64,000 nt of DNA from Rhodanobacter humi (GTDB lineage: Bacteria > Pseudomonadota > Gammaproteobacteria > Xanthomonadales > Rhodanobacteraceae). A program made the position numbers and the translations under genes. The first letter of the stretch is position 1, and each line of letters opens with the position of its first letter. The DNA lies in contig NZ_JBGBPY010000001.1 in the NCBI RefSeq assembly GCF_041107455.1, positions 3,906,001 to 3,970,000 of the forward strand, given 5' to 3'. Positions 26,191 to 57,738 of this stretch are shown here, in pieces. Below the pieces are notes generated by a model. The model was not told the DNA's origin. It did not search any database and saw only the letters and a program-made list of their open reading frames with translations.

Positions 26191-26819
26191 GGCGTGGCGC
26201 TGATGGGTTCGGCCAGGCGGATGCCGCGGGCGGTGCGGAGCTTCGGCAGGATCTGCACGGCCGTCGCCGCGGCGTCCGTCGGCACCACGGTGTAGGCCCC
26301 GACACTGTTGGGGCCGTGCACCACCTGCAGGTGCAGGGCATGCAACAAGGCGTTCCAGTCCGCCAGCGTCATGCCCGCGTCGGGCACCACGCGGATCGCG
26401 TCGGGCGGCACCGGCGATGGCGTCTCGCTGAGCGTGCGGTACGCCGGATTCTCGACGGCGGCCAGCTTGACGCCCAGCACGCCGAGGCCGACCGCCTGGG
26501 CGACCACGGCGGCGGCCAGCGCCCGCACCAGCCAGACGCGCGATCGTGGCTGGCGGGGAGCTTGCCGGGGATTGGAGGTATCGAGCCGGGCCAGCAGGCG
26601 CTGCAACCCGACCTCCGCGTCGAGCGGTCGCTCCGGCGGCAGCGACAGCGCGAGCCGCAGGCGGCTCTGCTGCGCAAACTCGGCGCGACACGATGCGCAG
26701 CCCGCCAGGTGATTCTCCAGCCAGGCCGCCTGTTCCTTCGCGGCGCTGTCCTGCAGCACCCAGGGCATCAATTCCCAGGCGTGCGGGCAATCCATGCCGG
26801 GGTTCTCCGTGGGCCTCAT
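26187..26819 (-). CDS. membrane-bound anti-sigma factor with zinc finger and propeptide-like periplasmic domain
   Basis: The 210-aa protein starts with a zf-HC2 anti-sigma domain (H37-x3-C41-x2-C44 in HLAGCASC), a linker rich in Pro/Arg, one transmembrane helix (about 96-120) and a periplasmic C-terminal domain. That domain (about 150-207: LLHALHLQVVHGP, GAYTVVP, LPKLRTARGIRLAEPI) resembles the propeptide of the neighbouring S8 protease (LKRHYGLREIAG, GLYCAVFEP, LLKTLAADARVRLAQPL). In the family such proteins hold the partner ECF sigma factor at the membrane until a signal arrives. ATGA overlaps on both sides tie it to the sigma and protease genes. Confidence 0.85.
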   Translation of the reverse strand: MRPTENPGMDCPHAWELMPWVLQDSAAKEQAAWLENHLAGCASCRAEFAQQSRLRLALSLPPERPLDAEVGLQRLLARLDTSNPRQAPRQPRSRVWLVRALAAAVVAQAVGLGVLGVKLAAVENPAYRTLSETPSPVPPDAIRVVPDAGMTLADWNALLHALHLQVVHGPNSVGAYTVVPTDAAATAVQILPKLRTARGIRLAEPISATP

Positions 26820-27400
26820 GACGCACCCTCCTTGCGGGCGGCCGGGTTGCCGGCCAGGCCGGGCAGCACGTTGCGCAGCTTGACCCGGGCATAGAACAGC
26901 CGCGCCTTCACCGTGCCCAGGGGGCACTGCATGATGGCCGCGACATCGTCCAGCGAATGCCCCACGCCGTAGACCAGCTCGATCACCACGCGCTGATCCG
27001 CCGACAGGTGTTCGAGTCCCTTGCCCAGCCAGTCGCGCAATTCGCGGTCTTCGTCCGGATCGCTGGACATGAGGCGCTCGTCCGTCGACATCTCGTATTC
27101 GACGGGTTCGTCGCCGTGCTGCCGCAATGCCTTGAGGCCGCAGCGGTAGGCGATGCCCATGATCCAGGTGGAAACGCGCGAGTCGCCGCGGAACTCGCCC
27201 GCCTTCTGCCAGGCGATCCAGAAGCAATCATTGACGACCTCTTCGATGACGTCGCTGCGTCGGGTGAGGCGGGACAGGAAGCGGCACAGCCGGCCGTGGT
27301 AACTGCGATACAACGTCGCCAGCGCGGCGCGGTCGCCCGTCGCCATGCGCTGGAGCAGCAGGCGGTCGATGACCTCGGCGTCGGTGTCGGCTTCGTTCAT
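26816..27400 (-). CDS. ECF-type RNA polymerase sigma factor
   Basis: The 194-aa protein contains sigma region 2 (about 28-90: LYRSYHGRLCRFLSRLTRRS, VVNDCFWIAWQKAGEFRGDS, WIMGIAYR) and region 4 (about 132-180: LSADQRVVIELVYGVGHSLD, MQCPLGTVKARLFYAR), with no regions 1 or 3, as in ECF factors. It heads the operon sigma/anti-sigma/protease/folE2. A 25-bp promoter-like site at 27415-27439 ends only 14 bp before its ATG and recurs before eight other operons here; autoregulation is inferred. No Shine-Dalgarno sequence precedes the ATG, so the mRNA may be nearly leaderless. Confidence 0.92.
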   Translation of the reverse strand: MNEADTDAEVIDRLLLQRMATGDRAALATLYRSYHGRLCRFLSRLTRRSDVIEEVVNDCFWIAWQKAGEFRGDSRVSTWIMGIAYRCGLKALRQHGDEPVEYEMSTDERLMSSDPDEDRELRDWLGKGLEHLSADQRVVIELVYGVGHSLDDVAAIMQCPLGTVKARLFYARVKLRNVLPGLAGNPAARKEGAS

Positions 27401-27414
27401 GGGTTGTCAGTTTG

Positions 27415-27439
27415 GTGCCGTTCGGACGCGAAAAGGTTG
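27415..27439 (-). promoter_or_regulatory. ECF-type promoter site 1, before the sigma operon
   Basis: On the - strand: CAACCTTT, 6 bases (TCGCGT), 5 bases (CCGAA), CGGCAC, then CAA. It fits the pattern CAACYTTT-N11-CGGCAC seen before nine operons. The site ends 14 bp before the sigma ATG. Confidence 0.7.
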
Positions 27440-27447
27440 CCCCCGGA

Positions 27448-28206
27448 TCAAAAAGACCAGGAAACCGTCGCAACCCACGGCGCGGCGCCCGGGGCGCCCC
27501 GCTGCCGGCGCATGCGCGGGGCGGTCACGATGCGCTCGAGTTCCATGCGCCAGTTCCCCATGGCCCAGATCAGGCCCGCGTGCCCGTAGCGGTAGGAGCT
27601 CGGGAGGGCCTGCCCGTATTCGTGCCCGTACACGCGCCAAGGGCCTGCGTACTCGTAGCTGCGGTAGGTCGCGGCGGGGGGCTGGGCGATGCCCACCCCG
27701 GCGGAAAGATAGGAATGCCATGGCAGCGGCCAGTGGAAATCGAGATCGGCCGCGCCCCGCACCCGGTGGTCACTTGCGCCCAGCGCGCGCACGGCCGACA
27801 GGCCGAAGGTCAGGACGTCGCGGTACATCCAGTGGACGCCTGCCTCGGCCCGGTCGAAGGTGCGCATGCGGGTCGAACCGGAGTAGCGGTAATACAGCAG
27901 GTCTGCCTGCATCTGCCAGGCATCGGACAGCGACCAGGAACGTGAGGCCTGGGCGGAGGTTTCGGCAAGATGGTGCGGCGCGCGCAACTCGGTGCCGGCC
28001 GACAGGCCCAGCGACCAGCCGGTCGGCGAGGTCCAGGAGGCGGCTCCCTGCAGGATCGGCGTAGCGGCGGTGATCGCCTGGCCGCGGTCGACCAGTTGCG
28101 AACTGAGCGCCACGGCGCCGTGGAAGCCTGCCGACTGGGCATGCAATCCCCACGGAAGGCAGGCGCCCAGCGCCAGCGATGCCAAGCCGAATGCGGATCG
28201 ATTCAT
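27448..28206 (-). CDS. putative outer-membrane beta-barrel protein of the electron-conduit operon
   Basis: A 252-aa exported protein with a signal peptide (LASLALGACLPWGLHAQS) followed by alternating hydrophobic/polar strands and a C-terminal phenylalanine (WVATVSWSF), as in outer-membrane barrels. The N-terminal part (ALSSQLVDRGQAITAATPIL) recalls the TorF/Gcw_chp family of putative porins, but the match is by eye only. It is the last gene of the mtrA-mtrB-cytochrome run, 130 bp after the diheme cytochrome, and is followed by the sigma operon with its own promoter. Function unknown. Confidence 0.65.
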   Translation of the reverse strand: MNRSAFGLASLALGACLPWGLHAQSAGFHGAVALSSQLVDRGQAITAATPILQGAASWTSPTGWSLGLSAGTELRAPHHLAETSAQASRSWSLSDAWQMQADLLYYRYSGSTRMRTFDRAEAGVHWMYRDVLTFGLSAVRALGASDHRVRGAADLDFHWPLPWHSYLSAGVGIAQPPAATYRSYEYAGPWRVYGHEYGQALPSSYRYGHAGLIWAMGNWRMELERIVTAPRMRRQRGAPGAAPWVATVSWSF

Positions 28207-28336
28207 GGGCCGCCTGGATGGTTCCCAAGTGTGCGGAGCCTAGCGCGAATCCGGGGCGGTGGCGTCGCTGCGGGCGACGCCTGTTGTCCCTCGGGAAAGC
28301 GCCAGCCCGACCGTGTGCTGGAGGACAGGCGTCGGG

Positions 28337-29044
28337 TCATTGCGTCGCGATGTAGCTCGACAGCGCCTGGATGTCCGCATCGTCGAGTGTCTGTGCCACG
28401 CCGTGCATGATCTGCGCGTTGCTGGTGCCGCGGCGCGCACCGCTCCTGAAATCGTGCAGTGCCTTGGTCACGTAGATCGCGGACAGGCCGTGCAGGCGCG
28501 GGAAGGTCGCCCACGGCGGTTGTGGCGCATCGCCGGGATACACCCGTGGCCCGCGCCCGGAGGGGCCGTGGCAAGCCTGGCAGGGAGGTACGCCGCGGGC
28601 CGGATCGCCGTCGAGAAAGAGCCGCCCACCGCGGGAGGCGGCATCGGCGCGGCCGGCCGGCCTGGCCGGGAGCGAGGCGTAATGGACGGCCAGGTTGCGC
28701 ATGTCCGCGTCGCTCAGCGTGGCGGCCTGGCCGCTCATGACCGGGTCGCTGCGCTGGCCGTGCTTGAAGGTTTTCAGTTGCACGTAGAGATAGGTCGCCG
28801 ACTGCCCGGCCAGGTCCGGAAAGTTCGGCGCGATGGCCAGGCCCTGCGGCCCGTGGCAGGCCGCGCAGACAGTCGATCGTGCCTGGCCGGCCCGGGCATC
28901 GCCGGTGATCGGCGGCTGCCGGCGCAGGTCGACCCACGTCGCAGGCTTGCGCGCCGCCGCGCCATCGGCCGCGACCGTCGAAAACGCGGGCGCCCACAGG
29001 ATGGCGAGCGCCACCAGATGAAGCAGACGAGGCATGGAAGGCAT
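28337..29044 (-). CDS. exported diheme cytochrome c (c4-like)
   Basis: The 235-aa protein has a signal peptide (LLHLVALAILWAPAFSTVAA) and two cytochrome c domains with heme motifs CAACH (Cys60-His64) and CQACH (Cys155-His159), each followed by GP.G and a distal Met candidate (DPVMSGQ, AQIMHGV). Such two-domain proteins of the c4/c553 type shuttle electrons in the periplasm. Only 12 bp separate it from mtrB, so it is part of the conduit operon and is the likely soluble electron carrier between the inner-membrane chain and the decaheme protein. Confidence 0.9.
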   Translation of the reverse strand: MPSMPRLLHLVALAILWAPAFSTVAADGAAARKPATWVDLRRQPPITGDARAGQARSTVCAACHGPQGLAIAPNFPDLAGQSATYLYVQLKTFKHGQRSDPVMSGQAATLSDADMRNLAVHYASLPARPAGRADAASRGGRLFLDGDPARGVPPCQACHGPSGRGPRVYPGDAPQPPWATFPRLHGLSAIYVTKALHDFRSGARRGTSNAQIMHGVAQTLDDADIQALSSYIATQ

Positions 29045-29056: not shown

Positions 29057-31687
29057 TCAGAGCTTCACGGTCACGAAGGCGCCCACCAGCAGGACATGCC
29101 AATGCGGCTGCGGCCCCAGCTCGGTGAAGACGCGGTTGCCGACGATCAGCTCGGCAGGCGTGCCGAAACCGGCGTAGTGCCAGTCGGCGTAGTTGCCGAA
29201 TTCGTATTTCCCGTACAGGACCAGACCCAGTTTCCGGTTCAGCGCCAGGTTCAGGCGGCCCGTGAGCGTCTGCATGCGGTAGACGTTGGCAGGGAAGCGG
29301 TCGCCGACATCCGCCGCGGTCAGGATGGATCGGTATACCGTGGAGATCGCCGCCAGACTGGCATAGCTGTAGCTGTCGAGACCGCGCGACCAGGTGTAGT
29401 CGTAGGCTAGGTCGAGCCTGACGCGCGGCGAGAAGGCGTGCCTGAAATGCGCGCCGGCGTCGACGTTGCGCTCGTTGTCCGTCGCCGTCCAGAAATTGGC
29501 ATACGGGTAGAACGGGCCGCCGAATTGCATGTCGGCCTGTTGCGGCGAGGAAAAGGTCAGCGCCTCGTTGTCGTTGACGTTGCCCTGCTTGAGCCGGCTC
29601 GATGCCATGCCCGCATAGGCGCTCATCGAGGTCGCCGCGCTCGGCTCCCAATCCCAGGACAGATCGGCGCCGGTCGTGCCGACGGATTGCCGCCCGATGT
29701 CCGCGCCGTAGTGATGCCGGTTGCCATACAGCGTGGCGCTGAGGGTGGCGGTGGTGCCCAGCGGCATGGCCAGGATCGCCTTGAGCTTGCTCGCCGCGAG
29801 GTTGCTCATGTCGTATTTGTACATCTGCGCGACGGTGAACGCGGTGTAGCTCACCGCAGGCAGCACATAGCCGGGCATGGACGGCGAGTACGCGGCGAGG
29901 TACGGATCGGGGTTGTAGCGGCCGCCCGTGCGCTTCTCGTATTCGTAGCTGAAACGCAGGGTCGCGTTGCCGAGGGCCCTGGTATCCCAGCCCAGCTTGA
30001 GGTGCTGGTCGTCGATGTAGCTGCGTTCGCGCGGGCGCGGCGTCTGGTGGTCGAGCAGGTAGCTCGCGCTCAGCGTGTTGTCCCGGTCGATCCGGTAGCT
30101 GCCACCCAGTTCCGCCTTGCGGTCGTTGGTGCTGAAGGGGATGTTGGCGATCTGTGCGAAGTTGGACTGGTACAGCGGGCTGCCGGGCTGGAACAGTTCG
30201 GTCCCGCCGGTGACGAGCGGCTCGGCGCCGTTCTCGGGAACGTAGCCGTACTGTCCGGTCAACGGGTTGACCATGGTGTAGCGCGTCATGTTGTTTTCGC
30301 TGCGCTGGCGCAGGTCGAGGTGCCAGCTGAGCTTTGCGGTGGGCCGAAAATCCACGCGCAGGTCGAGCAGGCCGGTATCGATGCGCGCATCGCCGTTCTG
30401 GCGCGACAGCGCGGCCGTGGTGTTCCAGTCCGCGCAGGCGATGCCGGTGGTGCCGAGGTACTGCCCGCTCGGGCAATACAGCGGGTTGAGCGGGGCCTGC
30501 AGTGCATCGTTCTGCCGCATGCTGCCGTAGGAAGCCGAGACGGAGAACTCGCCGCGCCAGAGCTTCAGCGGATGCGTAGCTTCCAGGCGCACGTGGTAGT
30601 AATCGTTGTTCGGCTCCAGCGACCAGGTGCCGCCGGTGATCACCGAGGCGTAGCCCGGCGCCACGGCAAACGGCACGGCATAGTCCAGCGTGCGCTTGTG
30701 GTCGCGGAAGAACGAGCCGGTCATGCCGAGGTTGAACAACCAGCCCGAGGCGCCGCCCTGGTTGCGCAGGCCCAGGTTGACGTCGGTGGTGGTGAAGTCG
30801 ACCGGGCGCACCGTTTCGTATTGCCCGCCGAACGTGCCCGGCACACTCGGCGTGCCCGCACCGCCCGGCCCCGGGGCCACGAAGAAGTAGGTGAGGTACA
30901 TCGGGCCGCCCCAGTCGCGGTCGCCCGTGCGGTTCTCGTTGGTCACGCCGGCGTAGCCGATCCAGTGGCGGGTCAGCGTGCCCTCCCAGCTGACACCCGT
31001 GCTCTGGCGCGTCACCGACAAGGTCCGGCGTGGCCGGTTCGCCTCCACGGCCTGCACCTGGGCCGGCGTGCTGCCGGTGGCGAGGCCGTCGGGCAGGGTC
31101 AGATCGGTGGAGCCCGCGCCGTTCCACAGCGGATACGCCGTCGTGCTCAGGGTGTGCGGGATGTCCCGGTAGAACGCCTCGACGCGATAGTCGCCGTAGC
31201 GGCCGCCGCGCAGGCGGTAGTACTGGTCCTGGCTGCTGATCCGGCTGCCGCGGAACTCGACGTACTGGCCGGTCCGGTGGTTCAGCGCGGAGAACGCGAG
31301 CATGCCCAGCGCGGCACCGTTCTTCCAGCCGGAATACATCCGGAAGAACTCGTCGTTGCGATCGCCGCTGACATGGAGGTAGCCGAGTTCGGCCAGCAAC
31401 TCGTACGTCCAGTCGCCACTGCCCAGCCTGGTCTCGTCGGGTATCTGGCGGGGCCAGGGGTAGAGCACGCCGGTCGGCGTGCGCAGCTGGCCGGCATGCA
31501 GCCAGGACATGCCGGCCGGGTCCGGCGCGTCGAACATCGCCCAGCCGGTGGGATCGAGGCTGTTGCCGAACTGGGTGTTGCCCACGCGCTGGCTGTCGCT
31601 GGTGTCGCTCTGCGCCAGCACCGGCGCGGGGCCTGCGACGCCGAGTGCCAGTCCGAGCAGCGCAGTCAGGGGTTTGTGCTTCAGCAT
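29057..31687 (-). CDS. MtrB/PioB-family decaheme-associated outer-membrane beta-barrel
   Basis: MtrB/PioB proteins are large porins that sheath a decaheme cytochrome so that electrons can cross the outer membrane. The 876-aa product has a signal peptide (LTALLGLALGVAGPAPVLAQ), then many amphipathic beta strands with aromatic girdles (for example LGMLAFSALNHRTGQYVEFR, GGRYGDYRVEAFYRDIPHTL) and ends WHVLLVGAFVTVKL. It is longer than Shewanella MtrB (about 700) and closer to PioB (about 800). It sits between the decaheme cytochrome (27 bp upstream) and the diheme cytochrome (12 bp downstream). The cysteine pair near the N terminus of MtrB is not seen. Confidence 0.88.
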   Translation of the reverse strand: MLKHKPLTALLGLALGVAGPAPVLAQSDTSDSQRVGNTQFGNSLDPTGWAMFDAPDPAGMSWLHAGQLRTPTGVLYPWPRQIPDETRLGSGDWTYELLAELGYLHVSGDRNDEFFRMYSGWKNGAALGMLAFSALNHRTGQYVEFRGSRISSQDQYYRLRGGRYGDYRVEAFYRDIPHTLSTTAYPLWNGAGSTDLTLPDGLATGSTPAQVQAVEANRPRRTLSVTRQSTGVSWEGTLTRHWIGYAGVTNENRTGDRDWGGPMYLTYFFVAPGPGGAGTPSVPGTFGGQYETVRPVDFTTTDVNLGLRNQGGASGWLFNLGMTGSFFRDHKRTLDYAVPFAVAPGYASVITGGTWSLEPNNDYYHVRLEATHPLKLWRGEFSVSASYGSMRQNDALQAPLNPLYCPSGQYLGTTGIACADWNTTAALSRQNGDARIDTGLLDLRVDFRPTAKLSWHLDLRQRSENNMTRYTMVNPLTGQYGYVPENGAEPLVTGGTELFQPGSPLYQSNFAQIANIPFSTNDRKAELGGSYRIDRDNTLSASYLLDHQTPRPRERSYIDDQHLKLGWDTRALGNATLRFSYEYEKRTGGRYNPDPYLAAYSPSMPGYVLPAVSYTAFTVAQMYKYDMSNLAASKLKAILAMPLGTTATLSATLYGNRHHYGADIGRQSVGTTGADLSWDWEPSAATSMSAYAGMASSRLKQGNVNDNEALTFSSPQQADMQFGGPFYPYANFWTATDNERNVDAGAHFRHAFSPRVRLDLAYDYTWSRGLDSYSYASLAAISTVYRSILTAADVGDRFPANVYRMQTLTGRLNLALNRKLGLVLYGKYEFGNYADWHYAGFGTPAELIVGNRVFTELGPQPHWHVLLVGAFVTVKL

Positions 31688-31714: not shown

Positions 31715-32902
31715 TCACTGGTGGAACTTGGCACCGTTGGGGTTGTTCGAACCGTGGATGTTGCTGTGGCAGCTCAGGCAGGCGCGCTCCATCACGCGCT
31801 CGTCCGGCACCAGCCCGCTGCGCAGGCTCTGGCGCGTCAGCAGATCGTTGACGTGGTCGTCGTTCGTGTGGCACTGCTGGCACAGCATCGGCACCGGCAG
31901 GGCCAGCAGGTTTTCCTGGTTCGAGCCGTGCGGGGTGTGGCAGTTGAGGCAGTTCTCGGCCACCGGCGCGTGCTCGAACAGGAACGGCCCGCGCTTCTCG
32001 GCGTGGCAGGTCGTGCAGGTCTCGTTGACGGTATCGGTCTTCAGCAGCGGCTGGGTGATGCTGCCGTGCGGGTTGTGGCAGTCCACGCAGGACATCTGCC
32101 CCTCCGGCAGCGGCATGTGCGAGCGGCGGTTGAACTGGGCGCGGATGTCCTGGTGGCAGGTTGCGCACACCTGGTTGATCGACTCGTTCGCCAGCACGCC
32201 TTCGGCGGACAGCCGCGTCATCGGGTTGTGGCAGTCGGTGCACGACAGTCCGCGTTCCTGGTGCACCGAGCCGATCCAGTGCTGGCGCGCGCCGCCGACG
32301 TGGCAGCTCAGGCAGGTGCGCGTCTGCACGTCGACCGGGGTTTTCGCGTCGCGCGTGTAGGCGATGATCAGGCCCGGCGCCGCGGGGTTCTTCGCATGCT
32401 CCGAGCCGGGGCCGTGGCAGGCTTCGCACGCGGCCTGCGGTCCGCTGCTGGCGCCGCCGGCGCGGAACGAGGCCACGTGCAGGCTGTGCGCGGCCTGCAT
32501 GCTCTCCAGCGCATGGCAGGCGGCGCAGCTCTTCGCGCCGATCGCGTCCGCGTCGGGCGCCAGCGGATTCCGCGGGATCGACGCCGCATCGAACGGCGTG
32601 GCGGGGCCGTCGTCGGACGCGTCCACGCGAGCGCCGTGGCGCATCGCCGCGCCGGCGCCCATGTCGGTGGCCGGCAGCATGCGCGCGATGTCGCTCTCGG
32701 TCAGGCGGCTGGATGGCTGGTGCGTGGCGGACTGGCCGGTGTTCGTGTCGTCGCGCTGCTGCGCCTGCGCGACGGACGACCACAGCAGCGCGTTGCCGAG
32801 GCCGACGGTCGCGGCCAGCAACGCCCACAGCGACAGCGCCGTCAGGCGCATGGCTCGTCGTCCCCGCGCTAGGCCCGGGATGTCTTTGCGCGTTGTCGTC
32901 AT
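31715..32902 (-). CDS. decaheme c-type cytochrome, MtrA/PioA/DmsE family
   Basis: The 395-aa protein contains exactly ten CxxCH heme motifs (CAACH, CEACH, CLSCH, CTDCH, CATCH, CVDCH, CTTCH, CLNCH, CQQCH, CLSCH) at regular spacing, with the family phrases CHNPHGS and NCHTPHGS. It is the periplasmic wire plugged into MtrB. The N terminus has a long basic segment, then the hydrophobic stretch TALSLWALLAATVGLGNALL as signal. ATG 32902 (GGGA eight bases upstream) was chosen; ATGs at 32851, 32941 and 32986 are possible. It heads the operon mtrA-mtrB-cytochrome-porin behind an ECF-type site. No MtrC-like surface cytochrome is in the window. Confidence 0.9.
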   Translation of the reverse strand: MTTTRKDIPGLARGRRAMRLTALSLWALLAATVGLGNALLWSSVAQAQQRDDTNTGQSATHQPSSRLTESDIARMLPATDMGAGAAMRHGARVDASDDGPATPFDAASIPRNPLAPDADAIGAKSCAACHALESMQAAHSLHVASFRAGGASSGPQAACEACHGPGSEHAKNPAAPGLIIAYTRDAKTPVDVQTRTCLSCHVGGARQHWIGSVHQERGLSCTDCHNPMTRLSAEGVLANESINQVCATCHQDIRAQFNRRSHMPLPEGQMSCVDCHNPHGSITQPLLKTDTVNETCTTCHAEKRGPFLFEHAPVAENCLNCHTPHGSNQENLLALPVPMLCQQCHTNDDHVNDLLTRQSLRSGLVPDERVMERACLSCHSNIHGSNNPNGAKFHQ

Positions 32903-33007
32903 CCAGTCGATCCCATGCATGTCCCCAAAGACTTGCTTCATGCCGAAGCGAGGCTCATGCGCGTGATGCATCTGCGCGTGATGCATCAGTGAGCCCTGTG
33001 AGACGGA

Positions 33008-33032
33008 GTGCCGGCTGGGCGATGAAAGGTTG
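33008..33032 (-). promoter_or_regulatory. ECF-type promoter site 2, before the decaheme operon
   Basis: On the - strand: CAACCTTT, CATCGC, CCAGC, CGGCAC, then TCC. It lies 105 bp before the chosen mtrA start and back to back with site 3. The stretch 32903-33201 has no gene; these two sites explain it as a divergent promoter region. Confidence 0.7.
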
Positions 33033-33129: not shown

Positions 33130-33154
33130 CAACCTTTCGCCAGCCGGACGACAC
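33130..33154 (+). promoter_or_regulatory. ECF-type promoter site 3, before the polysaccharide operon
   Basis: On the + strand: CAACCTTT, CGCCAG, CCGGA, CGACAC, then TCA. The following gene starts 47 bp after the site. Confidence 0.7.
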
Positions 33155-33201: not shown

Positions 33202-33639
33202 ATGGAAATCGAACGCATCCGGTTGCAGGAACATGGCGACGATCGCGGCATGCTGATCGCCCTGGAGCAGGATCGGAACGTGCCCTTCGTGATCCGGCGC
33301 GTGTATTACCTGTACGCCACCCATGGCGGCGTGCACCGCGGCATGCATGCGCATCGCCATCTCAATCAACTGGCGGTGGCGGTACGCGGCTCGGTCACCT
33401 TCCTGCTGGACGACGGCAGCGGACCGGTGCGGGTGGTGCTTGACGATCCCTCGTACGGCCTGCACCTCGGCAGCATGGTGTGGCGCGAGCTGTACGACTT
33501 CAGCGAGGACTGCGTGCTGATGGTGCTGGCCGACCATGTATACGACCCGGCCGACTACATCACCGACTACGCCACCTTCCTGCGCGAGGTGCGCGGCCCC
33601 GTGTACCAGGAGGGCATGGCGGCATGCCAAGGCCTCTAG
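33202..33639 (+). CDS. dTDP-4-oxo-6-deoxyhexose 3,4-ketoisomerase (FdtA/QdtA-type cupin)
   Basis: These small cupins move the keto group of dTDP-4-oxo-6-deoxyglucose from C4 to C3, preparing it for amination. The 145-aa product has the typical segments HGDDRGMLIALEQDRNVPFV, RRVYYLY, VHRGMHAHRHLNQLAVAV (His pair of the active site) and RGSVTFLLDDG. FdtA and QdtA differ only in the stereochemistry at C4, which I cannot decide by eye. Its partner aminotransferase is encoded at 36169. First gene of the operon; overlaps the next gene by 16 bp. The dTDP-glucose enzymes RmlA/RmlB are not in this window. Confidence 0.88.
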   Translation: MEIERIRLQEHGDDRGMLIALEQDRNVPFVIRRVYYLYATHGGVHRGMHAHRHLNQLAVAVRGSVTFLLDDGSGPVRVVLDDPSYGLHLGSMVWRELYDFSEDCVLMVLADHVYDPADYITDYATFLREVRGPVYQEGMAACQGL

Positions 33640-34289: not shown

Positions 34290-34296
34290 CGAGCGC

Positions 34297-51257: not shown

Positions 51258-52190
51258 TCAGGCGGATCGCGCCTCCGAGAACGGCATGCCGCGCCGGCGG
51301 CGCCAGGCCTGGTGGAAGCCCGCCGTGTGGTGCAGCTGCGCGTCCTGCGTCAGGGTTTCCTCGGACACGATGCGGCCGACGAACAGCGTGTGCGAGCCGA
51401 CTTCCTCGCTGTGCACGATGTCCAGCTCGCGGATGCGCAGCGCCGCGGCCACCGCGGGTATGCCGAAGGTGCGCGAGCGTCGGACCGGGAAGGGCAGTGC
51501 CGTCCAGTCCGCGAGCGGTTGCTTGTGATGCACGCTGAGTGCGTAGACGGCGTCCTTCATCGCCGCCGGCATGCAGGACAGGGCGATCCGGCGCTGCTCA
51601 CGCATCGTCGGCACGGAAACATTGGTGCTGCGCAGAGCGAGTGTGAACAGCCCGCTGCGCCCCAGCGGGCCGATCAGGTCCATCGGGAAGAGGTTGTGGT
51701 GGCCCGGTGCGTCGACGGAGACGAGCACGACCGGCCGCGGGCACAGGTAGGCGATCATCAGCTGCTGGGTTGCCATCGGCGCCATGAGGGAGTGGGGCGA
51801 CGCGTTGCCGTTGCGCATCAGGCGGTTCTGCAGCCAGGTGTTCCACGGACGCAGCGGCCAGGCCAGGCAGCGATGCCCGCCGGCTGCGACGTGGTAGAGG
51901 GCGAGCGTGCTGCCTTCGGCGCTGACCGTTGCTGTGCGCAGCAGTTGCAATTTCCCGAGCAGCCGGCCGCTGGTGCGGTCGCGGTACTCGAGAACGGGGT
52001 GCGGGCCGGCGTCCAGGCTGGTCGCGATGGTGAGCGGCCGTAGCGATGCCACAGTGTGGTCGGTGGTGACATCCGCGGCGGCCTTGCCCCAGCGCAAGCT
52101 GGCGACAACCGCCCGCTGTGGTGGCGTGACGGCGACCACCGACCATTGCGGCAGCGGACGGACGAATGGCCTGACCCAGTCCTTCCACAT
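51258..52190 (-). CDS. flavin-reductase-like (FMN-binding split-barrel) protein
   Basis: The 310-aa protein has a C-terminal flavin reductase domain: MATQQLMIAYLCPRPVVLVS, FPMDLIGPLGRSGLFTLALR, MKDAVYALSVHHKQ and HTLFVGRIVSEETL, the last with the typical H.L..G.V strand. The N-terminal third (WSVVAVTPPQRAVVASLRWG) is not recognised. Members bind FMN and supply reduced flavin or act directly as reductases. It is the last gene of the - strand operon that begins with the radical SAM gene at 55573, 2 bp after the methyltransferase. Partner oxygenase not visible. Confidence 0.7.
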   Translation of the reverse strand: MWKDWVRPFVRPLPQWSVVAVTPPQRAVVASLRWGKAAADVTTDHTVASLRPLTIATSLDAGPHPVLEYRDRTSGRLLGKLQLLRTATVSAEGSTLALYHVAAGGHRCLAWPLRPWNTWLQNRLMRNGNASPHSLMAPMATQQLMIAYLCPRPVVLVSVDAPGHHNLFPMDLIGPLGRSGLFTLALRSTNVSVPTMREQRRIALSCMPAAMKDAVYALSVHHKQPLADWTALPFPVRRSRTFGIPAVAAALRIRELDIVHSEEVGSHTLFVGRIVSEETLTQDAQLHHTAGFHQAWRRRRGMPFSEARSA

Positions 52191-52192
52191 CG

Positions 52193-52822
52193 TCAGACTC
52201 TCCGGAACAGCAGGAACATGTAAAGCTGGCTTGCGAGAGCAAGGCCGCTGGGCATCCGGCGCTCCAGCCGGAAATGCGGCGCCGCCGCCCGCGCCACGAT
52301 CCGCGGCGCGAAGCGGTGGATGCGGCTTTCGCTGGCGATGGCGTAGTGGCCGCGGCGCACGAGGTTCACCAGGTTCGCCCGCCACCAGCGGTAGCGTGCG
52401 TCGGCGAGGCAATAGGGGTTGAGCAGGCTGGCCAGCACGAAGCCGCCGTGCCGGACCACGTACGACAGTTGCTCGAACAACGCGGCATGATCCGCGAAGT
52501 GATTGAAGACCGCGAAGTTCGCCGTCACCGCCTGCACCTTGCAGGCAAGCGGCGAGGCGACCGCGACGACGGTCTTGCGCTCGATCTCGTCGCGGCAGTG
52601 CCGCAGCAGGCAATCGCGCATCGCCTCCGAAGGCTCGAACACGAAGGTCGGATGTCCGTTGGCGGCATAGGTTTTCGCATCGATGCCGGTGCCGGCGCCG
52701 AAGTCGAGCACGGACGCTCCCGCGGGCAGCAGGCCCAGCGCCAGCTGCTGGAACCTGGCGCGCACGCTCCGGTCCCGCGGCGAGGCCAGCATGAATTCGT
52801 GGTACTGCTCGCCGGTGTGCAT
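52193..52822 (-). CDS. class I SAM-dependent methyltransferase
   Basis: The 209-aa protein has YHEFMLASPRDRSVRARFQQ, motif I VLDFGAGTGIDAKTYAANG, FVFEPSEAMRDCL, VTANFAVFNHFADHAALFEQ and a C-terminal HRFAPRIVARAAAPHFRLER. ATG 52822 is the only good start after the nucleotidyltransferase stop (26 bp intergenic). The substrate is unknown; together with its neighbours it may act on the same metabolite or lipid-linked sugar as the radical SAM enzyme. Confidence 0.8.
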   Translation of the reverse strand: MHTGEQYHEFMLASPRDRSVRARFQQLALGLLPAGASVLDFGAGTGIDAKTYAANGHPTFVFEPSEAMRDCLLRHCRDEIERKTVVAVASPLACKVQAVTANFAVFNHFADHAALFEQLSYVVRHGGFVLASLLNPYCLADARYRWWRANLVNLVRRGHYAIASESRIHRFAPRIVARAAAPHFRLERRMPSGLALASQLYMFLLFRRV

Positions 52823-52848
52823 GTCGTCGATGGCCTTGCGGTCGTCCG

Positions 52849-54078
52849 CTACTCGCTCGCCGATGAGGCGCGCGGCTCCAGCGCCGTGCGCACCACGTAC
52901 AAGGTGTCCATGCGCGGCACCGGCCGCACGAGCCAGGCCAGCGCGCGCCGGCGCCGCGGCGAGGTGACCCAGTCCTGTCCCTGCAGCCAGAGCTGGGTGC
53001 GCGCCATGTCGGCGCGTTCCTTGCGGGCTTCGTCCGTGGGCCGGACATGGCGCGCAAGATGGCGCGCGGCCTCGCCGAAAGAACGCGACCACTCGATGCC
53101 GGCGAGCGCGTGCAACCACAGTTCGGAGCACGACACCCGGGTCAGGGTCTGACGCCGCGAGACCGCGCGCAGCAGGGGCGGGCAATCGCGTTCGAGCCGC
53201 GCGAGCACGGTCTCGGGCACCGCATGCCGGTAGTAGCGCGCGACCAGCCGCAGCGGCGGCAACGCCCACCACGGCGCGTCGTCGCCGTGGGCGCCCCACA
53301 GTTCGTTCCAGTCGCGCGCGACCATGCGCGTGGCCAGCAGCGAGATGTCGTTGAGATGCATCAGGCGCAGGCTGCGGCCGCAGATGTTGCCCGCCGCGTG
53401 CAACAGCAGGTGGCTCATCAGCGCGCCGCACGAGGGGTAGTCGTTCAGCCCCGGATGCGGTTCGCTCGGCTGGATGCGCCCGGTGATGTCGACGGCGGCC
53501 ACCGGCAACCGCTCCCGGATGTGCGTGTGCAGTTCGATGTTCACCGGTGCGTCGCGGTGCTCGCCCAGCCCGGCATAGGGCTGGCCGCCAGCGGGCTTGA
53601 ACACCTGGTGCTTCCACTGCGCGAACGAGGCCACGTAGCCGAGTTCCTGCAGCAGCACGCCCGCAGTCGCGGCGTCGGTTTCGCGCACCAGCAGGTCGAT
53701 GTCGGCCATCGGCCGCTCGCCCGGCGCGTAGATCCCCGCGGCGTGCAGCGCCGAGCCCTTCAGCGCGACGACGGGAAAGCCGGCGGCACGGGCACCGGCG
53801 TCGATGCGCTTGAGCAGGTCGATGATGCGGCGATGGCGCTGCTCGACCTGCGTGCGCTGGTCGGCAAGGAAATGCCGCCACGCCGGCTGGTCCCAGGTCG
53901 AGTACCGGTCGAGCAGCGGCGCCACGCCGTGCGCGACGGCGGCGGCCGCGGCCAGCGCCCACTCCAGTTCGCTCCATGCGGGCGTCTCGCTGCCCGGCTG
54001 CGCCAGTGCCAGCTCGGCGGCGAGCGCCTCGGTGGTGCGGCGCAGGCCGCTTCTGACGATGGCGAGCGGCGGCAGCAT
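52849..54078 (-). CDS. nucleotidyltransferase-like protein (PF14907 type)
   Basis: The 409-aa protein matches the uncharacterised nucleotidyltransferase family: AAGFPVVALKGSALHAAGIY, GERPMADIDLLVRETDAATA (the D-x-D of the nucleotidyltransferase fold in DIDLLV) and VNIELHTHIRERLP. Then follow MSHLLLHAAGNICGRSLRLM and HLNDISLLATRM. Such genes often accompany HPr-kinase-related genes and PqqD-type peptide chaperones, as is partly true here (kinase at 55787). ATG 54078 lies 10 bp after the radical SAM stop. The transferred group and acceptor are unknown. Confidence 0.75.
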   Translation of the reverse strand: MLPPLAIVRSGLRRTTEALAAELALAQPGSETPAWSELEWALAAAAAVAHGVAPLLDRYSTWDQPAWRHFLADQRTQVEQRHRRIIDLLKRIDAGARAAGFPVVALKGSALHAAGIYAPGERPMADIDLLVRETDAATAGVLLQELGYVASFAQWKHQVFKPAGGQPYAGLGEHRDAPVNIELHTHIRERLPVAAVDITGRIQPSEPHPGLNDYPSCGALMSHLLLHAAGNICGRSLRLMHLNDISLLATRMVARDWNELWGAHGDDAPWWALPPLRLVARYYRHAVPETVLARLERDCPPLLRAVSRRQTLTRVSCSELWLHALAGIEWSRSFGEAARHLARHVRPTDEARKERADMARTQLWLQGQDWVTSPRRRRALAWLVRPVPRMDTLYVVRTALEPRASSASE

Positions 54079-54088
54079 CAGGGCATCC

Positions 54089-55573
54089 CTAGCGCAGCTG
54101 CAAGGCGATGCGCTGCGGCACGGGCGGCGGCGTGGCATCGTGGTTGCGGTGCGCGTGTTCGCGCGCGATCAGCGCATCCCAGCGCGCGGCCAGCGCGGCG
54201 CTGGCCGCACGCTGGCGTTTCGGCGGCGTGCCGGCCCTGGCCTGCTGCAGCGCGACCTGTTCGTGCAGCAGGTCGCGCACGCTGCGGTAGAACTCCGAGT
54301 CGTAGGCGCCGCGGAACATCATGGCCAGGTCGCCGCTGTCCCGCCAATGCGTCTTGCGGCCGAGCTGGGCCTTCACCAGTTCGTAGAAGCGCGTCCCCGG
54401 CAAGGGATAGGACACGCTCACGCCGATGTCGTCCGGCGCTGCCTGCGCGACCAGTTCGCGGGTGGCCAGCAGGTCGGCCAGCTCCTCGCCCAGATAGCCG
54501 AGCTGGATGAAGAAGCCCACGCGGATGCTGTGCCGGCCCAGCCGTTCGCGCGCCACGATCAGCTCGGGGACCCTGGTGCCCTTGTTCATCGCGTCGAGCA
54601 CGCGCTGGCTGCCGCTCTCGGCGCCGAGCCACGCCTCGGCACAGCCGGCCTGCGCCAGCGCCGCGGCCATGCGTTCGCTGATCAGGTCGGCGCGGGTCTG
54701 GATGGTGAACGGCACCGCGCCGTCGCTGGCGCGCAGGTGTTCGGCGAACTCCGTCACCCAGTCGACGCGGAAGCCGAAGATGTCGTCCGCCATCCAGATG
54801 TGGTCGGGCTGGAAGGCATGTTTCAGGTGGCTCATTTCCGCCGCGACATCCTGCGGGCTGCGCTGCATGTAGTGGTTGCCCCAGATCGGCTTGGCGCACC
54901 AGTTGCAGCGGAACGGGCAGCCGCGCGACGCGGCCATGTTGAGGCTGAAAAAACCATGCCGTTCGTGCCAGATCGCGCGATAGCGTTCGATGTCGATCAG
55001 ATCCCAGGCCGGGTGGCCCACCAGGCGCGGATCCGGCGGCAGCGCACCGACGCGCGTCGGCTGCTGCTGTCCGCCCACCTGTGTGGCAACGCCCGCGAGG
55101 CTGGCCACCCAGGCCGGGGTGGCGATGTCGGGCGCGCGCTCCAGCCGGCCGATCAGTTCCGCCAGCGCGGCGATGCCTTCGCCGATCAGCACCGCCTCCG
55201 CGCCCGCCGCGAGAAAGGCCTCCGGGTGATCGGAAGCGTCGGAGCCGGCGACGATCACGCGGGCGCCGGCGGCACGCGCCTCGGCGATCATGCGACACGC
55301 CGCCTCGCGCATGCGGCCCAGGCACATCTTGGTCAGGAAGTTGAAGTTGTCCTCGTAGAGCACCACCACGTCCGGGCGCACGCCGTGCAGCGATGCGGCG
55401 AAATCCTCGACGCCCTCGGCCAGCATCGCGTCGAACAGCGCGACCTCGTGTCCCAGCCGCCGCAGCAGGGCGGCCACCTGGATCGTGGCGAGCGGAGGAT
55501 ACGGTTTGCCACGCTCCCACTGCTTCCGGTCGTACTTCAGGTAGTAAGCGTGGCCGACCAGGATCTTCAGCAT
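54089..55573 (-). CDS. cobalamin-binding-domain radical SAM protein
   Basis: The 494-aa protein has an N-terminal B12-binding-like domain (about 1-170: MLKILVGHAYYLKYDRKQWE, PPLATIQVAALLRRLGHEVA, VIVAGSDASDHPEAFLAAGA) and the radical SAM cluster motif CPFRCNWC (Cys219, Cys223, Cys226) after FFSLNMAASRG. Then follow MADDIFGFRVDWVTEFAEHL, AWLGAESGSQRVLDAMNKGT and VGFFIQLGYLGEE. It is a second, only distantly similar relative of the enzyme at 45276. The frame runs on upstream without homology; ATG 55573 was chosen. It heads a four-gene operon behind an ECF-type site. Confidence 0.87.
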   Translation of the reverse strand: MLKILVGHAYYLKYDRKQWERGKPYPPLATIQVAALLRRLGHEVALFDAMLAEGVEDFAASLHGVRPDVVVLYEDNFNFLTKMCLGRMREAACRMIAEARAAGARVIVAGSDASDHPEAFLAAGAEAVLIGEGIAALAELIGRLERAPDIATPAWVASLAGVATQVGGQQQPTRVGALPPDPRLVGHPAWDLIDIERYRAIWHERHGFFSLNMAASRGCPFRCNWCAKPIWGNHYMQRSPQDVAAEMSHLKHAFQPDHIWMADDIFGFRVDWVTEFAEHLRASDGAVPFTIQTRADLISERMAAALAQAGCAEAWLGAESGSQRVLDAMNKGTRVPELIVARERLGRHSIRVGFFIQLGYLGEELADLLATRELVAQAAPDDIGVSVSYPLPGTRFYELVKAQLGRKTHWRDSGDLAMMFRGAYDSEFYRSVRDLLHEQVALQQARAGTPPKRQRAASAALAARWDALIAREHAHRNHDATPPPVPQRIALQLR

Positions 55574-55654
55574 CACTATGGCCTCCGGGGGCCGTGGGGA
55601 CGGGCTGCTGCGGCGGACGACGTTTGCGTTCGGGCCGGCTCTTGCGGGAAGTGA

Positions 55655-55679
55655 GTGCTCGGTGGCGGGGCTTCGGTTG
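55655..55679 (-). promoter_or_regulatory. ECF-type promoter site 6, before the radical SAM operon
   Basis: On the - strand: CAACCGAA, GCCCCG, CCACC, GAGCAC, then TCA. The first block is degenerate after CAACC, but spacing and the CACTCA end agree. It lies 81 bp before the start and forms a divergent pair with site 7. Confidence 0.5.
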
Positions 55680-55725
55680 CCTGCGCGACGACGAGCCGCG
55701 GCAGCGTGGCGCGGTCGTGCGCGCG

Positions 55726-55750
55726 CAACCTTTTTTCGTTGCGGCCGCAC
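55726..55750 (+). promoter_or_regulatory. ECF-type promoter site 7, before the HPr-kinase-related gene
   Basis: On the + strand: CAACCTTT, TTTCGT, TGCGG, CCGCAC, then TCA. The gene starts 36 bp after the site. Confidence 0.65.
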
Positions 55751-55786
55751 TCATTCGGCACTTGCCCGGAGCCGCGCGCGACGAGG

Positions 55787-56818
55787 ATGGCCTTGACGAT
55801 CTCCCACGGCGTGCCGGATGCGGACGCGGACCCTTTCCGCGAGCGCAGTGGCCCCGCGTTCTCCGTGCGCAAGCAGCTCCTGGGCGGCGACTTCCGCTTC
55901 GACAGCGCCAGCGCGGCCTTGCTGCAGGTGGTCGAAGCCGCCTATGCCGGCCTGCCGCCGCATCGTTTGCCAGTGGCCGCGCCGGAGTTCCGCATCGAGC
56001 TGCGGCTGCTGCCGCGCCAGGCGTTGCCACGACGCACCGAGCCGCCGCCGGTGCGGATGCAATCCGGCGCCGGCCTGATCTGCGGCGTGATGGACGCGTC
56101 GAACTACGTGGTACTGGCGCCCGCGCAGCGGCAGGCCTTGGTGGTGGCTTCGGAGGACATGCTCGACCAGCCCTACCATCTGCGCTACGAACTCGTGGAA
56201 TTCGCCGTGTTCACCCTGGCGACGCGCGAGCTGGGCCTGGTTCCGCTGCATGGCGCCTGCATGGGTCGACAAGGGCGCGGCGTGCTGCTGCTGGGCGCAA
56301 GCGGTGCGGGCAAATCGACGCTGGCCTTGCACAGCCTGCTGCACGGCCTGGATTTTCTCGCCGAGGACGCCGTCTTCGTGCAGCCGGAAAGCCTGCTCGC
56401 CACCGGCGTCGCCAACTACCTGCACGTGCAGGCCGACGCGTTGCGCCACGTGGACGACCGTACCGCGCGGGACTGGCTCGAGCGCTCGCCGCGCATCCGT
56501 CGGCGCAGCGGCGTGGAGAAGTTCGAGGCCGACCTGCGCCAGAGTCCCGGCCAGCTCGCGGCCACACCGCTGGCATTGGCCGGCGCGGTGTTCGTCTCCG
56601 CCGAGGCGGCCGACGATGCGGATGCCTTGCTGAGTCCGCTCCGTACCGGCGACGTCGCCGCCCGCCTGCGCACTGACCAACCCTATGCATCCACGCAGCC
56701 CGGTTGGGATCGTTTCGAGCAGCAGCTGATCCGACGCGGCGTGCACGAGTTGCGCCGCGGGCGTCATCCGCGCGACGCCGTCGCCGCGCTGCACGCGCTG
56801 CTGGCCGGGTCGCATTGA
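55787..56818 (+). CDS. HPr-kinase-related protein (HprK-related kinase A type)
   Basis: The 343-aa protein has a C-terminal HprK-like kinase domain: VPLHGACMG (His155), the P-loop LLGASGAGKSTLAL (170-181) and LAEDAVFV (Asp194 region). Unlike true HPr kinases it lacks a recognisable HprK N-terminal domain; its N-terminal half (FRFDSASAALLQVVEAAYAG) is specific to the HprK-related group. That group is known from systems with a PqqD-like chaperone and nucleotidyltransferases; no PqqD gene is adjacent here. The phosphorylated target is unknown. ATG 55787 agrees with the promoter-like site 36 bp upstream. It is a single-gene unit. Confidence 0.78.
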   Translation: MALTISHGVPDADADPFRERSGPAFSVRKQLLGGDFRFDSASAALLQVVEAAYAGLPPHRLPVAAPEFRIELRLLPRQALPRRTEPPPVRMQSGAGLICGVMDASNYVVLAPAQRQALVVASEDMLDQPYHLRYELVEFAVFTLATRELGLVPLHGACMGRQGRGVLLLGASGAGKSTLALHSLLHGLDFLAEDAVFVQPESLLATGVANYLHVQADALRHVDDRTARDWLERSPRIRRRSGVEKFEADLRQSPGQLAATPLALAGAVFVSAEAADDADALLSPLRTGDVAARLRTDQPYASTQPGWDRFEQQLIRRGVHELRRGRHPRDAVAALHALLAGSH

Positions 56819-56837
56819 TCGCCACGGCGGCGGGCGG

Positions 56838-56862
56838 CAACTTTTCCCGACGGCGACGGCAC
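56838..56862 (+). promoter_or_regulatory. ECF-type promoter site 8, before the peroxiredoxin gene
   Basis: On the + strand: CAACTTTT, CCCGAC, GGCGA, CGGCAC, then CCA. It is 135 bp before the start codon, leaving a long 5' leader (56863-56997). Confidence 0.65.
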
Positions 56863-56997
56863 CCACGTTCCTGCCGCCGGCGCAGGCAACGGTTCGGACC
56901 GGGGCCGGTGAATCATCGGAGTGGTTCAACATCAACCGGGCAGGGGCCCGGCGCGGGTTGTTCCGTGCCGGGTCGATGCCCCATGCGAGGGTCGCAA

Positions 56998-57615
56998 ATG
57001 AAAACACGTCTTGCGGGATCGATGGCCACCGCTGCGCTGCTGGCGCTGCTGGTGGCGTTGCCGGCGCTTGCCGCGCTCAAGCCCGGTGCCACGGCGCCGG
57101 ATTTCACGGCCGAAGCCAGTCGCGCCGGCAAGGATTTCAGCTTCTCGCTGAAGGAAGCCCTCAAGCACGGGCCGGTGGTGGTGTACTTCTATCCATCGGC
57201 GTACACCGGCGGTTGCGATCTGGAAGCGCACACCTTCGCCACCGAGAAGGCCAGGTTCGACGCGGCCGGCGCCACCATCATCGGCGTGTCCGCCGACAGC
57301 ATCGAGCGGCTGAATGCCTTCTCGTCCGACCCGAAGTATTGCGCCGGCAAGTTCCCGGTGGCCTCCGATCCCGACGGCAAGGTGGCGGCGTCCTACGACC
57401 TCAAGATGACGGCGGAGCAACCGGGCATCAATGACGTGCGCGGCGTGGCGATCGACCATGGCTTCATCTCGCGCACCACTTTCGTGATCGCCGGCGACGG
57501 CCGGATCGTCGCCACGCTGTCGTCGGAGACCGACCATCTGCGGCCCGACCAGCACGTGGCGCGGTCGCTGGCCATCGTGCAGGGCATGCGGGCGGGCAAG
57601 CTGCCGACGCAGTGA
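56998..57615 (+). CDS. exported peroxiredoxin (AhpC/TSA, BCP-like)
   Basis: The 205-aa protein has a cleavable signal peptide (SMATAALLALLVALPALAAL) and a peroxiredoxin domain: LKPGATAPDFTAEAS, VVVYFYPSAYTGGCDLEAHT with the peroxidatic cysteine in the GGCDLE context, IIGVSADSIERLNAF and a second cysteine in KYCAGKFPVASDPDG. It would remove hydrogen peroxide or organic peroxides in the periplasm. ATG 56998 has GAGGG seven bases upstream. Its position behind an ECF-type site links peroxide defence to the electron-conduit regulon (inference). Confidence 0.88.
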   Translation: MKTRLAGSMATAALLALLVALPALAALKPGATAPDFTAEASRAGKDFSFSLKEALKHGPVVVYFYPSAYTGGCDLEAHTFATEKARFDAAGATIIGVSADSIERLNAFSSDPKYCAGKFPVASDPDGKVAASYDLKMTAEQPGINDVRGVAIDHGFISRTTFVIAGDGRIVATLSSETDHLRPDQHVARSLAIVQGMRAGKLPTQ

Positions 57616-57713
57616 TCCGACCCGATCATTTGAGCGTTCGTCCGGAAGACAGGGCCGCCACTGCGGCGGCCTCGTTCGCTGCGGTGGCCGCGAGGCGTTG
57701 CGCCGGCCACGCA

Positions 57714-57738
57714 CAACTTTTGGTCCGGTGGTTCGCAC
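57714..57738 (+). promoter_or_regulatory. ECF-type promoter site 9, before the ABC exporter gene
   Basis: On the + strand: CAACTTTT, GGTCCG, GTGGT, TCGCAC, then TCA. It ends 8 bp before ATG 57747, which suggests a leaderless mRNA, as for the sigma gene. Confidence 0.6.

Follow-up and report, generated by a model that had tools for sequence, protein, structure and literature searches.

A conserved regulon of apparent ECF type, with a newly defined promoter motif, spans cytochrome and surface-polysaccharide genes in Rhodanobacter humi

The window analysed here, 64,000 nucleotides of Rhodanobacter humi DNA (assembly GCF_041107455.1, contig NZ_JBGBPY010000001.1, 3,906,001-3,970,000, forward strand; genome size 4.15 Mb), carries a gene for an extracytoplasmic function (ECF) sigma factor, together with genes for a putative anti-sigma factor, a subtilase, an operon of cytochromes with an outer-membrane barrel, and a polysaccharide locus. 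Nine copies of one two-block motif stand before genes of this region, and they mark what appears from the sequence to be an ECF-type regulon, conserved among relatives, whose promoter is newly defined here. Very probably, this soil bacterium switches on its electron-transfer cytochromes and the neighbouring surface-polysaccharide genes through one shared promoter signal that is read by a dedicated sigma factor.

Several sets of relatives were used for comparison. A survey of 233 genomes of the family for homologues of the sigma factor gave 127 genomes with a match at E 1e-25 and 93 at 1e-80 or below. The best 80 of 155 stretches encoding relatives of the sigma factor, here called the named loci, come from Rhodanobacter, Frateuria, Dyella, Pinirhizobacter, Luteibacter, Xanthomonas and binned genomes with various labels; the nearest named relative among them is Rhodanobacter sp. 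C06, with a sigma identity of 97%. The cluster set consists of 36-39 kb from each of 20 relatives plus the matching part of the window (21 clusters, 816 kb), and these 20 relatives overlap partly in genomes with the named loci. The distant set holds 18 genomes in which the sigma factor is 42-53% identical and no HprK-like match is found at E 1e-30. A core site was scored in the 21 clusters when it lay within 420 bases upstream of a gene, carried a G at its position 20 or 21 and, in the three bases after CAC, agreed with a TCA-like sequence at two or more; the distance allowed before the sigma gene was 400 bases in the named loci and 300 bases in the distant set. The sigma gene and the nine sites are, in coordinates of the window:

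26816-27400, minus strand: ECF sigma factor that is proposed to read the motif (sigma-70 regions 2 and 4 by Pfam; TIGR02937 above cut-off)
27415-27439, minus strand: site before the sigma gene, CAACCTTT class (pattern and matrix scan; core site in 77 of 80 named loci)
33008-33032, minus strand: site before the cytochrome operon, CAACCTTT class (pattern and matrix; position kept in many relatives)
33130-33154, plus strand: site before the fdtA polysaccharide operon, CAACCTTT class (pattern and matrix; 19 of 20 clusters and 69 of 72 named loci with fdtA)
42158-42182, minus strand: site before the SnoaL-like gene, CAACC-ATT (matrix rank 6; present also in the relative G198)
42291-42315, plus strand: site before the methyltransferase operon, CAACC-AAA class (matrix-weak; core site in 19 of 21 clusters)
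55655-55679, minus strand: site before the B12/radical S-adenosylmethionine (SAM) gene, CAACC-GAA class (core site in all 21 clusters, 12 of them with GAA)
55726-55750, plus strand: site before the HprK-like gene, CAACCTTT class (pattern and matrix; 18 of 21 clusters)
56838-56862, plus strand: site before the peroxiredoxin gene, CAACTTTT (pattern and matrix; 2 of 8 clusters having the gene)
57714-57738, plus strand: site before the ABC (ATP-binding cassette) transporter gene, CAACTTTT (pattern and matrix; 12 of 20 clusters having the gene)

All nine sites of the preliminary description were found at its coordinates and on its strands, each measuring exactly 25 bases from CAAC to CAC; six of them read CAACYTTT, as it had said, and the other three share CAACC only. 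Its account of the second block stood in part. The GCAC end is present in eight of the nine sites, but the full CGGCAC given as consensus in just three, and the TCA or CCA said usually to follow was seen in five, so that the wording was slightly strong for this genome. The sites lie between genes and point toward the next one, with CAC 8-135 bases upstream of the chosen start codons, and the three divergent pairs exist; the sigma gene itself is preceded by the site at 27415-27439. In the housekeeping part of the window, where none had been seen by eye, a matrix trained on relatives gives no position above 6 bits. From the comparisons given below, the core motif is better written CAACC-N17-YACTCA, with the blocks CAACC and GGYACTCA, the TTT run standing outside the core and varying by promoter class. 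The motif is thus directional and two-block, with fixed spacing, and GGYA on the -10 side begins 16 bases past AAC. Since ECF promoters usually have the form AAC-N16-CGTA, this layout is the usual one for such promoters.

The spacing was compared with chance expectation at several levels of stringency. Every CAACYTTT in the window (6/6) has CAC at N14, and at the nine other gaps tried CAC was met only at N18, in two cases that are second CACs of two of the same sites. The looser form CAACY-N17-CAC has 14 matches in the window, 13 of them within 24.9-59.6 kb, against 2-9 at ten other gaps; because five of the 14 are intragenic by coordinates, this form alone is unspecific. In the whole genome, CAACYTTT-N12..16-CAC has eight matches, all with N14 and six within this 31 kb. 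The reversed control, with six genome matches over the five gaps, is nearly as frequent, and what carries weight is therefore where the matches lie and how they are spaced, and not how many there are. The 17-base consensus with up to three mismatches gave 23 genome matches against 11 for its control, seven of the best nine being in the window, and CAACC-N15-GGCACTCA with one mismatch allowed gave eight against two, with five in the window. An artefact of base composition or repeats might be suspected in a window of 68% G+C, where CAAC...CAC pairs are frequent (the off-by-one pattern, with 17 bases between CAAC and CAC instead of 18, has 1075 matches in the genome). However, the sharp spacing peak, the placement before genes and the conservation of the sites with diverged spacers contradict such an artefact, to which we give a negligible probability.

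A few matches lie outside the cluster. The only exact genome match of the CAACC-N15 form, at C1:2789011-2789038 (minus strand; L171), is 211 bases upstream of a BirA-like frame (named by eye) and may be an extra site or chance. For a further match, at C1:1989430-1989457 (minus strand), no filtered frame starts within 500 bases on its strand. A strict match at C1:2785855 (plus strand) was set aside as a probable chance match; it scores 10.0 bits and is enclosed by open frames on either strand.

The same sites occur before orthologues in related genomes, where the preliminary description had suggested looking. In the 21 clusters, CAACC-N17-YACYYA has 123 matches, of which 122 fall outside homologues of 27 window genes, the only genes that were masked; the single exception falls in the last part of wzz, 38 bases upstream of the methyltransferase gene. 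For the blocks CAACC and CACTCA, a gap of N17 occurs 72 times in the 20 relatives' clusters and each of 12 other gaps 0-3 times; in the named loci the corresponding figures are 106 and 0-5. The motif has been conserved while the spacers have diverged. A core site precedes the sigma gene in all 21 clusters and in 77 of the 80 named loci, 66 of these having the strict form and the remaining three loci showing degenerate versions by eye. The fdtA gene has a core site in 19 of the 20 clusters and 69 of the 72 named loci that possess it, and within the clusters sites were found before the methyltransferase (19/21), B12/radical SAM (21/21) and HprK-like (18/21) genes. The proportion was 5/7 for the MtrA gene and 12/20 for the ABC transporter among clusters having these genes, and only 2/8 for the peroxiredoxin. 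The SnoaL site at 42158 could be checked in one close relative only, G198, which has it (2/2 with the window). What the DNA itself shows is thus the presence and conservation of the sites, the genes around them, and the linkage of site and sigma gene; the same wiring has very probably been kept in many related bacteria.

The base triplet following CAACC is characteristic of the promoter. In the clusters it is TTT before sigma (18/21), fdtA (18/19) and the HprK-like gene (16/18), AAA before the methyltransferase (18/19 sites) and GAA before the B12/radical SAM gene (12/21, the remaining nine being mixed). These differences bear on the performance of the matrix, which was trained solely on the sigma, redox-operon and fdtA sites of 18 relatives (47 sites, one of which, from G146, is probably a chance match). 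It ranks seven of the nine window sites as 1-7 among about 128,000 positions; the site at 55655 has rank 9 and that at 42291 rank 24, near background. One could conclude from these two ranks that only the six CAACYTTT sites are promoters and the three weaker ones are chance. But the matrix was built from TTT-type sites and so wrongly demotes AAA and GAA sites, a fault that the orthologous promoters put right: the same gene has a core site in 21/21 (55655) and 19/21 (42291) clusters, with the GAA and AAA triplets kept as given above, and the third weak site, 42158, is ranked sixth by the matrix and recurs in its single testable relative. A restriction to six sites is accordingly very improbable, and the conserved variants suggest that 42291 and 55655 are members of other promoter classes. 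The promoter-specific triplets TTT, AAA and GAA may set promoter strength or the use of an accessory factor.

The sigma protein has 194 amino acids and matches PF04542, PF08281/PF04545 and the sigma70-ECF model TIGR02937 above cut-off. That this adjacent protein (26816-27400) reads the motif is very likely. The core motif is found within 300 bases before the sigma gene in 13 of the 18 distant relatives, and CAACC-N17-YACYYA occurs 19 times in these 18 loci against 0, 0, 0 and 1 at four other gaps. Here the motif accompanies sigma even where the HprK-like gene is missing, and no stronger sign of recognition by this sigma is available. It could still be proposed that another sigma factor, or a dedicated activator inherited with the cluster, reads the motif and that the adjacent sigma is merely one of the targets: its gene carries a site, as a target would, and the conserved differences between the AAA and GAA classes could be read by a second protein. 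We regard this as unlikely. The site persists with sigma genes of only 42-53% identity, as just described; a pair of blocks with constant spacing and variable bases between them, in one orientation and with no palindrome by eye, resembles a sigma promoter and not an activator site; and the scan of window frames between 23.9 and 59.6 kb, a span with some unassigned coding stretches, showed no other regulator domain.

Recognition of the promoters by the adjacent sigma is also favoured by the number of strict sites per genome, with a mean of 5.90 in the 93 genomes with sigma and 1.67 in the 140 without (p 2e-28). Several observations weigh in the other direction. The reversed control is likewise higher with sigma (6.54 vs 4.62, p 2e-4), and 18 of the 140 sigma-less genomes carry at least four strict sites. 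Five of the 18 distant relatives have no core match before sigma; in three of these the distance between the blocks is greater by one base, in one GGAAC replaces GGYAC, and one shows nothing similar. The genomes are related and hence not independent, so that all counts overstate the number of evolutionary events. Finally, a natural knock-out, a genome having the HprK-like gene and no sigma, was sought among the 233 genomes and none was found. The HprK-like gene is present in 91 of them, all 91 with sigma, and conversely 91 of the 93 genomes with sigma have it, the two others being the fragmented drafts G012 and G014; the two genes are inherited together. With these points taken into account, recognition of the promoters by this sigma is likely, and the single ECF regulon proposed in the preliminary description is supported, the sequence evidence pointing to one local regulon.

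Upstream of the sigma gene lie the genes of a predicted electron conduit, all on the minus strand:

27448-28206, minus strand: porin-like protein resembling TorF (TIGR02001 E 6.1e-09, under cut-off)
28337-29044, minus strand: dihaem cytochrome c (PF00034 E 2.1e-16; two CXXCH)
29057-31687, minus strand: MtrB/PioB-type outer-membrane barrel (PF11854 E 3.9e-73)
31715-32986, minus strand: decahaem cytochrome beside the barrel, taken as MtrA-type (PF09699 E 2.8e-31; ten CXXCH)

An MtrB/PioB barrel with a partner containing about ten haem-binding CXXCH motifs is the combination that defines MtrAB/PioAB-type systems, and electron transfer across the outer membrane is predicted; part of the decahaem cytochrome also matches the MtrC/MtrF domain model PF22113 (E 5e-12). 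The porin-like homologue is found upstream of sigma in all 80 named loci, and an MtrA homologue in nine of the 80 (within at most 20 kb of sequence each). Among the 18 distant loci, nine have an MtrA homologue after the subtilase, six of these nine with MtrB as well. Six distant loci (L193, L194, L195, L206, L207 and L208) show a second site about 950-1020 bases upstream of sigma and pointing away from it; in L195 and L206 the gene behind it encodes a cupredoxin of the plastocyanin/azurin type (PF00127), and in L196 a cupredoxin gene follows another site, downstream. The distant loci of sigma, anti-sigma and subtilase are thus often beside MtrA and sometimes beside a cupredoxin, so that the redox link looks older than the polysaccharide link. 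The recurrent theme would be a sigma factor with redox proteins, to which the glycan cluster looks like a later recruit.

The interval between fdtA and the porin-like gene varies among the named loci. In L049 it contains cytochrome b561, a CXXCH protein without a Pfam match and a cytochrome c, behind a promoter in the same position, and in L084 a cytochrome b561 was confirmed behind the promoter site at the position that the conduit has in the window; L051 and L079 have little room remaining there. In L061 (Dyella solisilvae), the homologues of the decahaem cytochrome, MtrB and the dihaem cytochrome are inverted within this interval, which indicates that the conduit has been rearranged within the regulon.

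Most of the remaining sites precede genes of polysaccharide synthesis or of modification and stress functions:

33202-41491, plus strand: polysaccharide operon, ending in Wzz (Pfam; conserved frames)
41599-42123, minus strand: SnoaL-like protein (PF12680 E 2.2e-06 on the longer frame 41599-42297)
42430-50978, plus strand: second synthesis operon (Pfam)
51258-55573, minus strand: operon of B12/radical SAM protein, NTP_transf_5 nucleotidyltransferase, an intervening stretch and a flavin-reductase-like domain (Pfam)
55787-56818, plus strand: HPr-kinase-like protein (PF07475 E 5.6e-07, below cut-off; HprK-related models below cut-off)
56998-57615, plus strand: AhpC/PrxQ-like peroxiredoxin (PF00578 E 2.1e-25 on the longer frame 56704-57615)
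57747-59588, plus strand: ABC transporter, membrane and ATPase parts fused (PF00005 E 1.3e-18; PF00664 E 2e-05, just below cut-off)

The first operon encodes, in order, FdtA, a hexapeptide transferase, an unknown protein (34297-35250), a GNAT protein, a DegT aminotransferase, a WzxE-like flippase (its match to the WzxE model, E 5.4e-84, falls below cut-off), a conserved coding region (38.5-40.6 kb) and Wzz. FdtA, DegT and a hexapeptide acetyltransferase together point to a possible synthesis of dTDP-Fuc3NAc; fdtA is present in 72 of the 80 named loci. In the second operon, a methyltransferase, an amidohydrolase, another methyltransferase and a B12/radical SAM protein are followed by two glycosyltransferases, an acyltransferase and a methyltransferase. 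Of the 21 clusters, only those of this genome and G198 have the SnoaL-like gene and the site that precedes it, located after wzz and ahead of the methyltransferase operon. The HPr-kinase-like, NTP_transf_5 and radical SAM proteins at 52849-56818 are reminiscent of the tailoring enzymes of lasso peptides.

Downstream of the sigma gene, and on the same strand, are two genes that may belong to the switch itself:

26187-26819, minus strand: anti-sigma factor with cytoplasmic zf-HC2, one probable membrane helix and a periplasmic domain resembling a subtilase prodomain (PF13490 E 3.1e-05)
24892-26190, minus strand: S8 subtilase encoded after the anti-sigma factor, with an N-terminal prodomain of its own and a start that by eye looks like a signal peptide (PF00082 E 3.6e-33)

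The frame of the anti-sigma factor is missing from the mechanical list of open reading frames, except inside the longer frame 26187-27227. Its zf-HC2 domain (PF13490) is matched by 34 of 35 anti-sigma members, with the H-x3-C-x2-C residues H37, C41 and C44 invariant in all 35, and its profile matches the RsiW chain at E 0.0073. Such a domain, encoded beside a sigma factor, assigns the protein by sequence to the class I zinc-finger anti-sigma factors. A helix predicted at residues 95-120 (model confidence mostly about 50) is the probable membrane helix. The gene is present in all 80 named loci and the subtilase gene lies near sigma in 79 of them, as also in 17 of the 18 distant loci, the eighteenth ending at a contig edge.

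The last 70 residues of the anti-sigma factor form a predicted beta-alpha-beta-beta-alpha-beta domain (block confidence 77-93). The top 50 Foldseek matches in the PDB include the prodomains of furin/PC1/3, subtilisin BPN', subtilisin E and Tk-subtilisin, as well as a PCSK9 chain taken as its prodomain; the separate prodomain chains among them have TM-scores by target of 0.52-0.72 and E 0.008 or weaker. The prodomain of the neighbouring subtilase was itself recognized from its predicted structure and PDB fold matches to pro-subtilisin. Profile comparison of the two proteins by hhalign gave E 0.0085 with the full profiles of 35, and E 1.4e-4 with a probability of 53% when the anti-sigma end was aligned with the prodomain (1 of 200 column shuffles as good); with 79 and 78 named plus 17 distant sequences, these values became E 3.2e-5 and 73%, with none of 300 shuffles as good. 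Apart from zf-HC2, no Pfam family but the fervidolysin prodomain PF22148 had matches in two or more anti-sigma members (7/35, best E 0.045). Other results weaken this likeness. The first Foldseek match is EF-1beta, RNA-binding and ACT domains score alike and every E-value exceeds 0.001; the hhalign probability on the full profiles is just 4.7%; the PF22148 match is below cut-off, the one member shown in full having 13.6 bits where the cut-off is 21; and PF22148 had no match in the 35 subtilases. The evidence from sequences and models for a resemblance of the periplasmic domain to the prodomain of the next gene's subtilase is fair but not conclusive.

The finding can be taken in two ways. In the first, the subtilase would be one of the products of the regulon and have no part in the switch; it might, for example, mature a surface protein. 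The periplasmic domain of the anti-sigma factor would then be an unrelated sensor with a ferredoxin-like fold. Such folds are common and the Foldseek E-values weak, and a lipoprotein-like start in 48 of 78 orthologous subtilases (by a regular-expression test) means that the partners may occupy different membranes. However, the likeness is to the prodomain and not to the catalytic part (anti-sigma profile score 28.5 vs 17.2), and the subtilase gene keeps its place near sigma in nearly all loci, as given above. We put this explanation somewhat below an even chance. In the second, a new type of ECF switch, the anti-sigma factor would wear a copy of the subtilase prodomain as its sensor, and the subtilase of the same operon would read this copy as its own propeptide and so release sigma; a regulon that began with redox genes, for the decahaem cytochrome/MtrB and a cupredoxin, would later have captured a glycan factory, with the TTT/AAA/GAA code grading the response. 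We advance this whole scheme tentatively. A literature search for an anti-sigma factor of the prodomain-sensing kind brought up only an unrelated paper.

The best explanation of the locus as a whole, with a trigger by the subtilase included as a hypothesis, is that one ECF sigma (26816-27400) drives nine CAACC-N17-(C/T)ACTCA promoters and so switches the cytochromes and the glycan locus as one block, which we consider highly probable. Sigma would transcribe its own gene with those of the anti-sigma factor and subtilase, the decahaem cytochrome/MtrB conduit, and the locus for biosynthesis and export of a surface glycan. At rest, sigma would be held by the probably membrane-bound zinc-finger anti-sigma factor, as its family implies. 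Given the likeness of the periplasmic domain to the prodomain of the next gene's subtilase, the likely trigger would be binding or cleavage of this domain by the mature subtilase upon a change in an envelope or redox signal, and the release of sigma may amplify itself through the autoregulatory site before the sigma gene. Outer-membrane electron transfer and surface glycan production would then be linked under one switch, for which the prodomain-like anti-sigma factor offers a concrete, if hypothetical, idea of envelope sensing.

Besides the 93 of 233 family genomes at E 1e-80 or below, the sigma factor is present in Xanthomonas among the named loci, and RpoE4 (XC_2566, XAC1682) of Xanthomonas is a possible orthologue. 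In this comparison, six Xanthomonas sigmas are 92-99% alike and that of X. albilineans is 76-78% identical to those six. A table in PMC6085468 gives RpoE4 as 93-99% conserved among xanthomonads. The passages of PMC6085468 consulted report no virulence role for sigma factors besides RpoE1, RpoD and RpoH under the conditions tested there, and no RpoE4 regulon. The literature searches made here gave no paper that ties CAACCTTT to a sigma-factor promoter, and nothing that was recognized as this regulon. The analysis offers a promoter code that is open to testing, and a predicted set of target genes, for a sigma factor without a described regulon in the literature searched.

Among known systems, the classical pairs of an ECF sigma and a class I zinc-finger anti-sigma factor include sigmaW-RsiW and sigmaE-RseA. 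As in these, the sigma factor described here adjoins a probably membrane-bound zf-HC2 anti-sigma factor, the -35 block contains AAC, and a site precedes the sigma gene; unlike them, it has the promoter CAACC-N17-YACTCA, a prodomain-like periplasmic domain, an adjoining subtilase and a compact regulon of cytochrome and glycan genes. RsiV, an anti-sigma factor of Bacillus, is itself the receptor for the enzyme that is sensed, lysozyme. By analogy, the present anti-sigma factor would have an outer domain shaped for binding an enzyme, but here the cell itself would make that enzyme, the subtilase of the same operon. With MtrAB/PioAB conduits the locus shares one operon for a decahaem cytochrome and an MtrB/PioB barrel. 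It differs from them in that no separate MtrC-type gene is seen in the operon, though the decahaem protein partly matches the MtrC/MtrF model, and in that the conduit stands under an ECF-type promoter and is present in a small part of the named loci. The kind of system, ECF, is already known, and what is new is the promoter, the gene set and, possibly, the prodomain-based sensing.

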